A stretch of 63,769 nucleotides of DNA from Candidatus Gastranaerophilales bacterium (GTDB taxonomy: Bacteria > Cyanobacteriota > Vampirovibrionia > Gastranaerophilales > Gastranaerophilaceae), in the NCBI GenBank assembly GCA_944326635.1, contig CALVEU010000002.1, positions 1 through 63,769 on the forward strand, given 5' to 3'. This document shows positions 20,508-63,016 of this stretch, piece by piece. Below the pieces are notes generated by a model that was not told the DNA's origin, did not search any database, and worked only from the letters and a program-made list of their open reading frames with translations. Each line of letters begins with the position of its first letter. The stretch's first letter is position 1. A program made the translations under genes and the position numbers.

Positions 20508-21239
20508 ATGAAAAAATTTAAAAATTTCGGGGGGGGGGGCAGATTAACCGCTCCTAATAAGGGATTTACATTAGCAGAGGTTTTAATAACATTGGGAATT
20601 ATCGGTGTTGTCGCCGCAATGACGATGCCTAGTATAGTTGGAAAATATCGAGCAAAAGTTTTAAGAACCAAGTTTTTACAAGCTAATGTTATTGTACAGG
20701 ATAGTGTATCTCAAATGCGAAATGATGAAGTTGATTTAAATGAAGTAATTAATAAAAGGGATTCATCTACCATAAATAAATATTTTAAGAATGGAAATTG
20801 TGTTTTGCCAGAAAATGCAAGTAAAGTTGGTTATAAAAATCTTAGTGGATCTCAGTTTGCTGATACAGCCGTTGCTACTGTGTTAGAGCAGCCGTATTGC
20901 CTAGCTAATGGAATGACTTTATGGTTTGTAAGATTAAAGGAAACTAATATTGTTGGTGATTGGAGTTCTGGTTTTGTAGATATTAATTATTCTCTTCTTG
21001 CAGTAGACATTAATGGATGGATGCAACGTCCTAATGCATATGGTAAAGATGTATTTTTTTGGTTTTATAATGGAAATACCGGAGCGCTTAGTCCAACTGG
21101 TTCTACTTTTAATATTGATTCAAATGTTTCTAATTTGTATACAAAATGTAATAAATCAAGTATTCATGCTGAAAGTGGAGCTGGATGTACTGCTGAGGCT
21201 TTGAATGATCCGTATTATTTTGATAAATTGTCTTTGTAA
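20508..21239 (+). CDS. Type IV pseudopilin A, poly-G tract in frame (ON)
   Basis: This 243-aa prepilin-like protein has the leader MKKFKNFGGGGRLTAPNKG, cut by prepilin peptidase before FTLAEVLITLG (Glu at +5 present). A hydrophobic helix and a globular domain follow. The four leader glycines are encoded by 11 G plus C at 20529-20540. With 11 G the reading frame is open from ATG to stop, so this copy is ON. The C-terminal half has DINGWMQRPNAYGKDVFF, a diverged form of the D.NG..GPN..G.D.F motif shared by all five family members here. Ribosome binding site GAAAGGAG precedes the ATG. mutL lies convergently 22 nt downstream, with no clear terminator between. Confidence 0.88.
   Translation: MKKFKNFGGGGRLTAPNKGFTLAEVLITLGIIGVVAAMTMPSIVGKYRAKVLRTKFLQANVIVQDSVSQMRNDEVDLNEVINKRDSSTINKYFKNGNCVLPENASKVGYKNLSGSQFADTAVATVLEQPYCLANGMTLWFVRLKETNIVGDWSSGFVDINYSLLAVDINGWMQRPNAYGKDVFFWFYNGNTGALSPTGSTFNIDSNVSNLYTKCNKSSIHAESGAGCTAEALNDPYYFDKLSL
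20529..20539 (+). repeat. Poly-G tract, 11 G, in pilin A leader
   Basis: An uninterrupted run of 11 G lies within codons 8-11 of the leader, upstream of the prepilin cleavage site. Lengths of 8, 11 or 14 keep the frame. 10 or 12 would truncate the protein. Confidence 0.9.
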
Positions 21240-21261
21240 TTAATTAAAATTATTAATGAAA

Positions 21262-23049
21262 TTATGCATTTCTTTGGAAGAAAGCTGCGATTTCTTTATG
21301 CGGGAAAAATTTTACAATTGGACGTCCATGAGGACAGGTGTATGGCATTTTTGTTGTACGCCATTTTTTTATAATTTCCTGCATTTGCCAAGTTGAAAGT
21401 TTTTGACCGGCTTTTACTGATGCTTTACAAGAGGTTGTAATTAGGATTTTTTCTTCTAATCTATCAATATTTCCGTCTATATTTTCTAAAATGTCTGCTA
21501 AAATCTCTTTAGGATTTACTTTTGCAATCATTTGAGGAACTTTGCGGAAAATAAGTTCATTATCTTTCAAAAATTCTATTCCATATCCGAATTTTTCAAA
21601 TTTATCAATGTTTTCTTTTATAAGTTCAGCTTCTGAACTTGATACAGGGACAACATCTGATACAAAAAGCATTTGAGATACAATATTTTTTTCAGACATT
21701 AATTTTTCATAAATGTATCTTTCTTCTGCGATGTGTTGGTCAACAATTTCCAGTCCATCTTCTTTTTCAACAAGAATATATGTGTTTTTATATTGACCTA
21801 CAATATTTTCTTCAGGTTCAGCTTCTTTTTCAACAGGAACAAAAAATTGTTTTTGTTCTGTTTGTTCAACTTGAGTTTCTTTTAATTTTTTGGTTTCTTG
21901 CTCCATTAATTTATCAGATACATAAATTGTATCGTCTTTTTTGTCAAAGAAAATATCTCCAGATTGTTCTATTTTAGGCTGAACAAAATCTATAATATGG
22001 CTTTGTTGAAAATTTTCATTTGGATTAAATTGTTGCGGCGGATTAATTGTGTTTTTTTCAACATAATTTGCAAGCCCAGCTTGAATTGAAGTGTAGATGA
22101 AATTGAATATTTGGTTTGTATTTTTGTATCTTACTTCTTTTTTTGTCGGGTGGACATTCACATCAACATCTGATGGTGGAATTTCTAAATTCAATACAAC
22201 AAAAGGGTATTTGCCATTTGCAATAAGGCTTTTATAAGCTGTATCTATTGCTTTTTGGAAAATAGGACATTTAACTGTTCTTGAATTTATGTAGATATGA
22301 TAACTTTTTTTGCTTGATCGAGTGTAATCTGGTGTACTCACATATCCTGATATTTTTAATCCTGCAAGATTGTCTGTTTTTAAGACTTCTTTTAAATTTG
22401 CTATTACATCTGCCGAGTAAACTTCTTTAATTGTTTGTAAAAGATTATTTTGCCCAGATGTTTTAAGCATTGTTTTCCCGTTCTTTTTAAGTTCCAAAGA
22501 ACATTCCGGATGTGCAAGGGCTATTGCTTGTACGAGTTCTTGAATATATGAAAATTCGGTATTCGGACTTTTCAAAAATTTTAAACGTGCAGGTAGATTA
22601 TAAAAAAGATCTTTGATATCCATAATCGTTCCGACAGCACAGCCTGTTTCAACTTGTTTTACTTCAGAATTCTCACATTTAACTTTTGTCCCAGTCTCAA
22701 AATCAGCAGTTCTTGTAGTACAAGTTAATTTTGAAATTGAAATAATGCTAGATAATGCTTCCCCTCTAAATCCGAGAGTATGAATATTGAATAAATCTTC
22801 ATCTGACGCAATTTTGCTTGTTGCATGTTTTGAAAACGCAAGCATAATATCATCAGGGTGAATTCCGCAGCCGTTATCAGCAACTCTTATATCTCTACAA
22901 TCATTATTTATTTCAATACTTATTTTAGATGAGCCTGCATCAACAGAGTTTTCTACAAGTTCTTTTACAACAGATGCAGGTCTTTCAATTACTTCTCCCG
23001 CTGCAATTTGGTTTATTAAATGCTTTGATAACTGCTGAATTCTAGCCAT
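21262..23049 (-). CDS. mutL: DNA mismatch repair protein MutL
   Basis: MutL links mismatch recognition by MutS to strand removal. The GHKL ATPase domain shows LVENSVDAG (with ERPASVVKE before it), DNGCGI, HATSKI and GFRGEAL. The C-terminal domain carries the endonuclease signature VDQHIAEERYIYE (Ile replaces the usual Ala of DQHA), plus ACKASVKAG near the end and CPHGRP, a metal-binding element. So this is the endonuclease type found in bacteria without MutH. The 595-aa length is normal. The downstream neighbour is the ON pseudopilin gene. MutL activity would influence slippage at the poly-G tracts. Confidence 0.96.
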   Translation of the reverse strand: MARIQQLSKHLINQIAAGEVIERPASVVKELVENSVDAGSSKISIEINNDCRDIRVADNGCGIHPDDIMLAFSKHATSKIASDEDLFNIHTLGFRGEALSSIISISKLTCTTRTADFETGTKVKCENSEVKQVETGCAVGTIMDIKDLFYNLPARLKFLKSPNTEFSYIQELVQAIALAHPECSLELKKNGKTMLKTSGQNNLLQTIKEVYSADVIANLKEVLKTDNLAGLKISGYVSTPDYTRSSKKSYHIYINSRTVKCPIFQKAIDTAYKSLIANGKYPFVVLNLEIPPSDVDVNVHPTKKEVRYKNTNQIFNFIYTSIQAGLANYVEKNTINPPQQFNPNENFQQSHIIDFVQPKIEQSGDIFFDKKDDTIYVSDKLMEQETKKLKETQVEQTEQKQFFVPVEKEAEPEENIVGQYKNTYILVEKEDGLEIVDQHIAEERYIYEKLMSEKNIVSQMLFVSDVVPVSSSEAELIKENIDKFEKFGYGIEFLKDNELIFRKVPQMIAKVNPKEILADILENIDGNIDRLEEKILITTSCKASVKAGQKLSTWQMQEIIKKWRTTKMPYTCPHGRPIVKFFPHKEIAAFFQRNA

Positions 23050-28151: not shown

Positions 28152-28179
28152 TAATTTGTATAGTATGAAAGGAGCATTT

Positions 28180-28904
28180 ATGTTTAGATTGTTAAGTAAA
28201 GTAAGCCGGGGGGGGGGCATAATTTAGGCTCCTACAGAGGTTTTACTCTCGCAGAAGTATTAGTAACTTTGGGTATTATTGGCATTGTTTCAGCAATGAC
28301 AGTTCCGACTTTGATGCAAAATTATCAAAGAAAAAGTTATGTTATTCAATTACATAAAGTTTATAATGAAACTTTGCAAGTACTGGAAATGTTTCAAACA
28401 GATAGAAATGCTGTAAATTTGAAAGAAGCTGGTTTAACATCGCAAGATTCAGTAGATAAAATGATTAAGACTTATTTTAAAGTTATTAAAGAGTGTGATT
28501 CAATGACTGAATGTTTTGCAGATCAGTATAAAAAACTTGATGGTACAGTTGAAAATGATAAAATGTTTTCTAGAAATTTAAAATCTTATGTTTTAGCAAG
28601 TGGTGCATCGATTAGACCTGCATATTATGTAGAGGGACCTAATAAAATAATCAATATGGCTGTTGATGTGAATGGAGCACAAGGACCGAATGTTCAAGGT
28701 CGGGATTTGTTTTGGATTTATATATATAATAATGGCAGGGTTGATGATTTTGGAGATGATGCTAATGTTAATGCTCCTTTGACCAATGAACAAAGAGAGG
28801 ATATATATAAAAAATACTGTCAATCTCTAGAAGAAGCTCCAGATGCAGGTGGTGGAGGTTGTTTTGGTAGAATTCTTAATGATAATTGGGAAATGACTTA
28901 TTAA
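28180..28904 (+). CDS. Type IV pseudopilin B, frameshifted at poly-G (OFF)
   Basis: From ATG 28180, with GAAAGGAG 6 nt upstream, translation runs into a G tract (28208-28217, 10 G) and stops at TAG 28225-28227 after 15 residues. Adding one G opens a frame that aligns residue for residue with pilin C: ten leader residues, GGG, HNLGSYRG, then FTLAEVLVTLG and a pilin body ending NDNWEMTY at 28904. No in-frame ATG exists between the tract and the pilin helix, only a TTG inside the helix. So the intact gene needs 8 or 11 G. The body carries DVNGAQGPNVQGRDLF and several Cys. It is read here as phase OFF. A sequencing error is the alternative. Confidence 0.82.
28208..28217 (+). repeat. Poly-G tract, 10 G, in pilin B leader
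   Basis: An uninterrupted run of ten G follows CC and precedes CAT. One more G would restore the pilin frame. Confidence 0.9.
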
Positions 28905-38597: not shown

Positions 38598-39335
38598 ATG
38601 TTTGGATTGTTAAGTAATTTAACTCCGGGGGGTGGACATAATTTAAGCTCCTATAAGGGATTCACCCTTGCCGAAGTTTTAGTAACTTTAGGAATTATTG
38701 GTGTAGTATCTGCAATGACAGTACCTACTTTGATGCAAAATTATCAAAGAAAGTCTTATGTCGTTCAGTTGCATAAAGTTTATAATGAGTTTCAACAAGC
38801 TGCTTTACAATTAATGACTGATAAAAATGCTCTTAATTTATCTGAGGCAGGTCTTAATAGTGATGATGCTGCTGGCAATTTTGTTAAAACTTATTTCAAG
38901 ATTGTCAAAGATTGTGGTACAGATGCAGCAATGTGTTTCCCTGAAAAAGATAATTATAAGAAAATTTCTGGAGATAAAGTGACTTTTTGGTATGGCAAAC
39001 GTCATTTTGTATTAGCGAGTGGTGCATCAATTGCAACTTATTACAATGCTAGATCTGGCTTAATTATGGAAATATGGGTTGATACCAATGGTGCTAAAGG
39101 TCCTAATATTATTGGTAGAGATATGTTTGTTATGTTTTTATACAATAATGGTGTACTAGATGATTTAAATAGTCAAAATGATGCTGATGATAATGTTACA
39201 GGATATGCTAATGTGCCTTTATCTAAGGAGTTAAGAGAAGAGAAATTTAATAGATATTGTATGGCAGGCAGTGGTGTAAATATTCATGGCTGTTTTGGAA
39301 AATTATTAAATGACAATTGGGAAATGACATATTAA
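38598..39335 (+). CDS. Type IV pseudopilin C, tract interrupted and locked in frame
   Basis: This 245-aa prepilin-like protein starts at ATG 38598, which has GAAAGGA upstream. A longer frame from 38532 would run through the terminator and is not used. The leader MFGLLSNLTPGGGHNLSSYKG is cut before FTLAEVLVTLG (Glu +5). The three leader glycines are encoded by six G, a T and two G, so no long homopolymer exists and the frame is stable. The body has DTNGAKGPNIIGRDMF and ends NDNWEMTY like pilin B. It is a stand-alone unit between terminators. Confidence 0.88.
   Translation: MFGLLSNLTPGGGHNLSSYKGFTLAEVLVTLGIIGVVSAMTVPTLMQNYQRKSYVVQLHKVYNEFQQAALQLMTDKNALNLSEAGLNSDDAAGNFVKTYFKIVKDCGTDAAMCFPEKDNYKKISGDKVTFWYGKRHFVLASGASIATYYNARSGLIMEIWVDTNGAKGPNIIGRDMFVMFLYNNGVLDDLNSQNDADDNVTGYANVPLSKELREEKFNRYCMAGSGVNIHGCFGKLLNDNWEMTY
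38627..38635 (+). repeat. Interrupted G tract in pilin C leader
   Basis: Six G, one T and two G occupy the place where pilins B and E have ten uninterrupted G. The T fixes the length and frame. Confidence 0.85.
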
Positions 39336-56048: not shown

Positions 56049-56818
56049 TTAATTTGAAAAATCTGCGCCAGCTTCATAATTAGAATATTGTAATTCTTCA
56101 TCTACAAGTACTGAGTCTATTTTAGTATGCCAATTAGCTATTTGCTTATTTGTTATTATGAAGCTGTATACATCTGCACCTAATTGGTTTGGACCTTTTA
56201 GACCATTTGCATCAATTATCATAGTTCCACATTGTTTAGAATAAGTTTCTTTGGTTTGGTAACCACCATTCCCGTCAGGGATCCAGTTGCCGTTACTATC
56301 AGTTAATTTATCGGTAAAAATTCTACCACAATTTGAATCTCCCCCTACATATGGCAATATCGCAATAGACGATCCATCTGTTAAAACTGCTTTATAAAAA
56401 CGGGTTGTTGTGACTGTTCCATTTTTACCTTGTCCATTATTTTTTGCTTTTGGATATTTTATATATTGTTCCATACAACCATTTTTGCCTTGATTACAGA
56501 TTTCGATTATTTTTAGGTATGAAAAAAATTCTTCTGCAAGTGCTTGTGTCGTTTTATTTTGGTCGAAAATTCCAGAAAAATCATCTGCACCTTTATCATA
56601 TTTCCATTTATCAAAAGCATTCAAAATAGTTGAATATGTCTTTTTTGTCTGTGTAATGTAGACTTTATTTTTGTAATTTGCAATTAATGTTGGTATTGTG
56701 AGGGCCGCAACAATACCTATTATTCCGAGTGTAATTAGGATTTCTGCAAGAGTGAAACCTCTCTCTACGCAATGTTTTTGCGGGGGGGGGGCACTCTCAA
56801 AGCTTCTTGATTAAACAT
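56049..56818 (-). CDS. Type IV pseudopilin D, frameshifted at poly-C/G (OFF)
   Basis: ATG 56818 (minus strand) has GGAGG 7 nt upstream. Translation gives MFNQEALRVPPPRKNIA and then stops (TAG) because the tract at 56782-56791 has 10 bases. With 11 (or 8) the frame would read VPPPPQKHCVERG, then FTLAEILITLGIIGIVAAL with Glu at +5, and continue to the stop at 56049. No in-frame start exists between tract and pilin helix. The body has DANGLKGPNQLGADVYSF and four Cys. The leader differs from pilins A, B, C and E, so this is a distinct subfamily. It ends at the terminator shared with adhE. Confidence 0.82.
56782..56791 (+). repeat. Homopolymer tract, 10 G (C on coding strand), pilin D
   Basis: Ten uninterrupted G on the plus strand read as C in the pilin D leader, coding for Pro. 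One more base would restore the frame. Confidence 0.9.
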
Positions 56819-62255: not shown

Positions 62256-63016
62256 ATGATTAAAATGTTAAGGAATGTAACTTGGGGGGGGGGCATAATT
62301 TAAGCTCCTATAAAGGTTTTACCCTTGCTGAAGTGTTGGTTACTTTAGGTATAATCGGAGTAGTGTCAGCGATGACTGTGCCGACATTAATGCAAAATCA
62401 TCAGCGAAAAACTTATTCTGTTCAAGCTCATAAATTTTATAATGAAATGCAGCAAGCTTTGACTATGTTTATGACAGATAATAATGCTGTAGGTATAAAT
62501 GAAACAAAATTAAATAATTCTGATTTTGATATATCAGTTACTCCATTTGTAAAAAATTATTTTAAAGTAGTTCAAGATTGTGGCGCTACTCCTCAACCTT
62601 GTTTCGCAGATGAATATAAATCATTATCTGGAACAACAATAGCAGGTTCAAAGGTTGGTAGAGGACAACCTATTAGATGTTTCTCAATAGCCAGTGGTGC
62701 AAGTTTTTGTATGGGACCTTTTTCTGGAAATGCAGATACCGGAGCCGGATATATTTATGTAGATACTAATGGTAGCCAAGGGCCTAATATTGGTTGCAGG
62801 GATTATTGGCGAATGTTTTACTATTCTGATGCATCTGTAGATGGCTGGCAATTAAGTCCTGGTTGTAAAAAAAATGGAGCATTGTGCCCAGATGGAGGTT
62901 CTGTTGAAGCAGAAAGAAAATATGATTGGGATGAAGGTTGCGGAAATCCAGCAGAGCCAGAGGATATTGATGGTATTGGTAGATTAATAGGCAACGGTTG
63001 GGAAATGGATTGGTAA
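62256..63016 (+). CDS. Type IV pseudopilin E, frameshifted at poly-G (OFF)
   Basis: ATG 62256 (GAAAGGAG 6 nt upstream) reads MIKMLRNVTWGGGII and then stops (TAA), because the tract at 62284-62293 has ten G. With 11 G the leader would read ten residues, GGG, HNLSSYKG and continue FTLAEVLVTLG, aligning exactly with pilin C. The body has DTNGSQGPNIGCRDYW and ends GNGWEMDW. It carries eleven Cys, more than its relatives. A TTG at 62282 could give a shorter in-frame product but has no ribosome binding site. The gene is a stand-alone unit with its own terminator. Confidence 0.82.
62284..62293 (+). repeat. Poly-G tract, 10 G, in pilin E leader
   Basis: Ten uninterrupted G lie between CTT and CAT. 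Eight or eleven would open the pilin frame. Confidence 0.9.

Follow-up and report, generated by a model that had tools for sequence, protein, structure and literature searches.

Pilin B, a type IV pilin gene of a Candidatus Gastranaerophilales bacterium, is probably one of about 75 phase-variable (contingency) pilin genes which, as far as can be judged from sequence, are OFF by default and would be switched by slippage of a homopolymeric tract. The gene lies in a stretch of 63,769 nucleotides (the window), which is contig C2 of a metagenome-assembled genome of 149 contigs and 1.84 Mb (G000).

Pilin genes of the window

Pilin B is encoded on the forward strand and is preceded by the Shine-Dalgarno (SD) sequence AGGAG (28170-28174), in an SD-ATG-tract arrangement that is repeated at about 200 loci. 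Its leader consists of the ATG and 25 further nucleotides 5' of the tract (28180-28207, codon register 1), followed by ten G residues with a C on either flank (28208-28217). The frame opened by the ATG at 28180 is 15 codons long and ends at a TAG (28225-28227), a stop which is conserved in the gated loci. The tract is one base short (OFF) and must gain one base, or lose two, to reach the pilin frame. The pilin body (28233-28904) is intact and remains open for 223 codons up to 28904, shows 60% identity with the body of pilin C, and matches at its start the Pfam N_methyl profile (PF07963) with a score above the cut-off. With 11 Gs the leader of pilin B would read MFRLLSKVSRGGGHNLGSYRGFTLAEVLVTLG, the counterpart in pilin C being MFGLLSNLTPGGGHNLSSYKGFTLAEVLVTLG, and the earliest start codon in the pilin frame of pilin B is a TTG at 28269, already within the helix.

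These features bear out the first-pass annotation, which had described pilin B as out of frame by exactly one base at G10, with a leader that aligns with that of pilin C when a G is added, no other in-frame start before the helix and an otherwise undisrupted body. The offset itself is real; however, since every frameshift is displaced by one base modulo 3, it says little by itself, and the weight must come from the context. Informative instead are the recurrence of the same offset at about 185 loci and the conserved stop in the unshifted frame. The first-pass annotation had missed this stop, as well as the presence of about 75 gated loci in the genome, the C-G10-C motif and OFF as the default state. 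Its implied reading, a slippage-gated pilin in the OFF state rather than a decayed gene, is supported by the analysis.

Four other pilin genes were found in the window. Pilin A (20508-21239, forward strand) is gated by 11 Gs (20529-20539) and is in frame (ON), while pilin D (62256-63016, forward strand), with ten Gs at 62284-62293, is one base short (OFF). Pilin E (56049-56818, reverse strand) shows the opposite polarity, with a coding-strand C10 at 56782-56791, and is also OFF by one missing base. Pilin C (38598-39335, forward strand) is ungated: downstream of its ATG at 38598 the 11-nt tract is interrupted (C GGGGGG T GG A) and reads GGGGGGTGGA, and these substitutions lock the gene in frame (ON). 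The window contains 17 runs of seven Gs, counted with overlaps, versus 0.46 expected, so the tracts are not due to chance. Pilin A, the sole gated pilin of the window that is ON, adjoins a MutL-like gene on the opposite strand (both within 20508-23049); a mismatch repair system seems to be present, a point of relevance to slippage rates.

Gated pilin repertoire of the genome

A profile search with PF07963 identified 91 pilins in G000, which share the prepilin motif G/FTLAE and the hydrophobic helix; the genome contains one prepilin peptidase (PF01478) and one PilC/GspF platform gene. Nearly all of its 77 G or C runs of at least eight residues are located between an SD with start codon and a pilin motif. 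Some gated loci have longer leaders, of about 30 codons, and about 25 further pilins lack the tract and have an ordinary in-frame start. In 70 gated loci the start codon could be scored, and tract length determines if start and body are in the same frame. At length 10, one base is missing from 60 loci and one locus is in frame; the six loci of length 11 are all in frame, and three loci have length 9. Seven of the 70 loci are ON. All tract lengths here and below are the majority length in the assemblies. One gated pilin (L091:1-110, contig C66) shows a stop within the FTLAE motif (FTLA*) and is likely a truly dead copy. In the pairs L013/L014 and L021/L024 the sequences after the tract are near-identical and the leaders differ, as if they had been exchanged at the tract.

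Addition of the loci of several species gave a pooled set of 222 unique tract-pilin loci, which are related by descent, and their counts are not independent trials. In this set, 185 of the 10-mers are a base short (82, 78 and 25 in the three codon registers), at most four require two bases and a handful are in frame. Only 14 of 210 loci are ON, where one third would be so in the absence of bias (p about 2e-20, for loci that are related and not independent). When leaders were clustered by similarity at 75% identity, 51 clusters resulted, and 45 of them fall in the same in-frame length class.

Unshifted-frame stop and integrity of the pilin bodies

In the unshifted frame, the stop past the tract lies at a median of 7 nt, versus 26 nt for the second of the two non-productive frames. 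It is mostly provided by the first leucine codon past the tract, which yields TAA or TAG in the unshifted frame at 149 of 159 loci, compared with 37% of the leucines of the body and with only 15 of 84 second leucines (p 5e-51 for the first-leucine bias, a value that overstates independence because the loci are related). Where valine or isoleucine replaces the first leucine, the NTA-R pattern is still present. The sequence GCTCC is also enriched after the tract.

Among the OFF loci, 179 of 184 bodies are intact (at least 150 amino acids), and stops or frameshifts do not pile up in them. No start codon lies between tract and motif in 95 loci with a short spacer. RNA structure was examined as pairing of the SD with the post-tract region, in which neither a conserved hairpin nor covariation was detected; a hairpin between SD and anti-SD across the tract was considered and dropped, as pairing with the own SD was no better than with permuted partners.

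Flanking nucleotides of the tract

In the G-strand orientation, C residues adjoin the tract at 194 and 197 of 201 G-coding loci on the two sides and at 28 of 29 C-coding loci on each side, and such flanks are usual in non-pilin tracts too. C-G10-C occurs in each of the three codon registers and on either strand. Since the flanks are kept though register and polarity vary, the constraint acts on the nucleotides and not on the peptide, and a GC clamp setting the slippage rate would be the simplest guess for their role. Length 10 is shown by 183 of 203 G-coding loci. The diversity of codon registers was discarded as proof of selection for length 10, as two point mutations can slide the tract with the frame kept. 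A few non-pilin genes (L096:1-1041 at G000 C101:5770, L118, L213 and L282) carry C-G10-C in frame inside their coding region, a rare situation.

Distribution and length differences among relatives

A survey of the genus found the layout in 30 of 33 species, with a reversed-pattern control near zero. Of 117 genomes of the class, 19 contain the exact C-G10-C layout; all 19 belong to the same family and represent five genera, and the layout was absent from 77 genomes of other families. In the closest sampled relative (G015), whose SepF is 100% identical, the gene directly 3' of sepF, the site that pilin B occupies in the window, is likewise a pilin whose tract is G10 and whose body is intact; this position is occupied by a gated pilin in G014 and by ungated pilins in G017 and G018. 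Viral contigs were searched for strain variants, and none of the 120 matches was a gated pilin. The database entry labelled Fusobacterium sp. CAG:439 (L143, L146) belongs to the same Gastranaerophilales-type genus as G000, judging by its gene content and its match to G001, another genome of that genus.

Tract length differs in three of 32 pairs of near-identical homologous loci. L037 and L147, with flanks 97% identical, have 9 and 10 residues, and L058 and L068 have 10 and 11. In addition, counterpart non-pilin genes show C10 and an open frame in one genome (L466, G011 C1) and C11 and a broken frame in another (L468, G001 C4); where readable, their homologues in other species have no tract. 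Both comparisons show that tracts do change in length.

The sample from other genera comprised about 60 loci, part of which were chosen for an exact length of 10. In genus g7 (G088) the 10-mers lack one base and the flanking sequences are different. In genus g5 (G121, G127) the sampled 9-mers lack one base, in-frame copies with the same downstream sequence type have length 10, and one copy is in frame at 8. Genera g3 and g9 show tracts of 10 or 11 that are often one base too long, with some in frame at 10. Contig ends or N gaps fall in or just past tracts more than expected (G001 C16, C51 and C78; L243, L240 and L228), perhaps through length mixtures or repeated leaders. The contig ends of G001 were not retained as evidence for length mixtures: they are ambiguous, as leaders are repeats too.

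Proposed mechanism and alternative explanations

Each gated gene would combine a strong ribosome-binding site, a short leader, C-G10-C and the prepilin cleavage motif. At length 10 the ribosome is predicted to stop a few codons past the tract, so that the pilin is not made; replication slippage that adds one base in a cell would place leader and pilin body in the same frame, and the pilin so switched on could join the single type IV pilus machine. Slippage around a usual length specific to each lineage would account for the differences between genera. Given that the usual length is OFF, the pilins shown by any one cell are probably the ungated ones together with a limited and shifting selection of the gated ones, and the pilus is likely to differ between cells in its minor or major subunits. 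We infer that switching is reversible in living populations, that the pilins are displayed on the surface and that the benefit is immune, phage or niche variation. Two observations weigh against slippage: tract length departs from 10 less often than is usual for a slippery repeat, and the offset is unidirectional in the window's genus, which free slippage by itself does not require. The C flanks and the conserved stop suggest a constraint beyond that of an ordinary repeat. We also considered a dedicated system of default-OFF combinatorial display, in which a conserved 12-bp C-G10-C element has spread through most pilin genes of this gut cyanobacterial lineage with one length, one OFF frame and a built-in stop, possibly with a protein that recognises or resets it, and each cell samples a few of the roughly 75 pilins; we regard this as unlikely.

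Programmed recoding would make the fixed G10 or C10 a device for a set, low pilin output, through +1 transcriptional slippage or -1 ribosomal frameshifting, with the stop ending the unshifted product. The uniform direction and length in the window's genus and in g7, the intact OFF bodies and the unshifted-frame stop conserved within 5-8 nt at 149 of 159 loci, well above background, fit this explanation. However, one fixed direction does not extend across homologues in general: the shift required in g3 and g9 is the opposite one, and some copies in g5 are in frame at length 10. Furthermore, C10 and G10 behave alike, in the same direction, despite proline versus glycine codons and different RNA polymerase hybrids, non-pilin genes carry the tract in frame, and no conserved RNA hairpin was detected between the SD and the post-tract region. 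The C10 loci and the genera with opposite offset weaken ribosomal frameshifting as a sole explanation, and the g3/g9 and g5 loci weaken the uniform +1 direction as an argument; we consider recoding improbable. The tracts could also have been undercalled by sequencers or assemblers, with true lengths one base longer and all genes in frame. The majority of loci are indeed one short in three genera, and annotated G-tract lengths are known to be possibly off by one (PMC9187656). Such an artefact is nevertheless very unlikely, since the 10-mers of g3 and g9 are one base too long, L096, L118, L213 and L282 have G10 or C10 in frame, 11- to 13-mers are called elsewhere and metagenome-assembled genomes from many assemblers agree. 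A stop codon selected in the supposedly false length-10 frame likewise argues against miscalled lengths. Several lengths and both directions of offset across genera favour slippage over a fixed recoding or a constant undercall.

There is also a small chance that C-G10-C serves a different purpose as a DNA element, such as protein binding or a recombination joint swapping leaders and bodies, and that gating is secondary. Its near-universal C flanks in every register and both polarities, most non-pilin tracts included, point that way, as do identical downstream halves with different leaders (C119 versus C47:3177; C104 versus C37). Against it, both the frame bias and the conserved stop depend on the reading frame, tracts of 9 or 11 are frequent in some genera, and neither a binding protein nor a recombinase was identified. 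That pilin B is an ordinary frameshifted copy in decay, as its being out of frame at the sequenced length might suggest, is extremely improbable. The first-pass annotation had disfavoured decay and had pointed to further frameshifts or stops in close relatives as the sign of a dead gene; these were looked for and not found, the site being intact in G015 and occupied by intact gated or ungated pilins in the relatives. Decay is rejected because the OFF bodies are intact, and the same offset recurs at the many gated loci.

Comparison with known systems

The antigenic variation of Neisseria pilE/pilS proceeds by gene conversion, and its silent copies, which have neither promoter nor start, take effect through recombination. 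The present loci resemble it in serving one pilus machine with a large and mostly silent repertoire of pilin variants, but here every gene carries an SD, a start and a complete body of its own. The poly-G loci of Campylobacter, Helicobacter and Neisseria involve varied genes and broad ranges of length; unlike them, the loci described here involve one protein family, one length, a common OFF frame and a conserved stop. In both, a homopolymer within or close to the coding sequence of surface genes switches translation through its length (for example PMC2823697, PMC5084427). Genes with programmed frameshifts (dnaX, IS elements; PMC5009743, PMC1088944) also combine a homopolymer with a close stop in the unshifted frame; in contrast, no stimulatory structure was found here between the SD and the post-tract region, the direction varies by genus, and both G and C runs work.

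The sortase-dependent pili of the gut bacterium Bifidobacterium breve have G10/G11 tracts in which the reference length is OFF and a minority ON state was detected by deep sequencing (PMC9187656). The two systems share a gut commensal as host, a surface pilus gene whose coding region contains a G10/G11 tract, an OFF reference and a one-base change that joins leader with body (PMC9187656). The systems differ in that B. breve has sortase pili at one or two loci per genome, compared with type IV pilins at about 75 loci with fixed C flanks here, and in that slippage, which was measured in B. breve (PMC9187656), is deduced here.

No report of phase variation in non-photosynthetic gut Cyanobacteriota was found in the open-licence literature. 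Confirmation of switching would place these pilins among the largest phase-variable repertoires formed by a single family in one small genome, and switching, if true, would explain the presence of about 100 pilins alongside one pilus machine in these bacteria. Annotation pipelines will label most of the gated genes as pseudogenes or misplace their starts.
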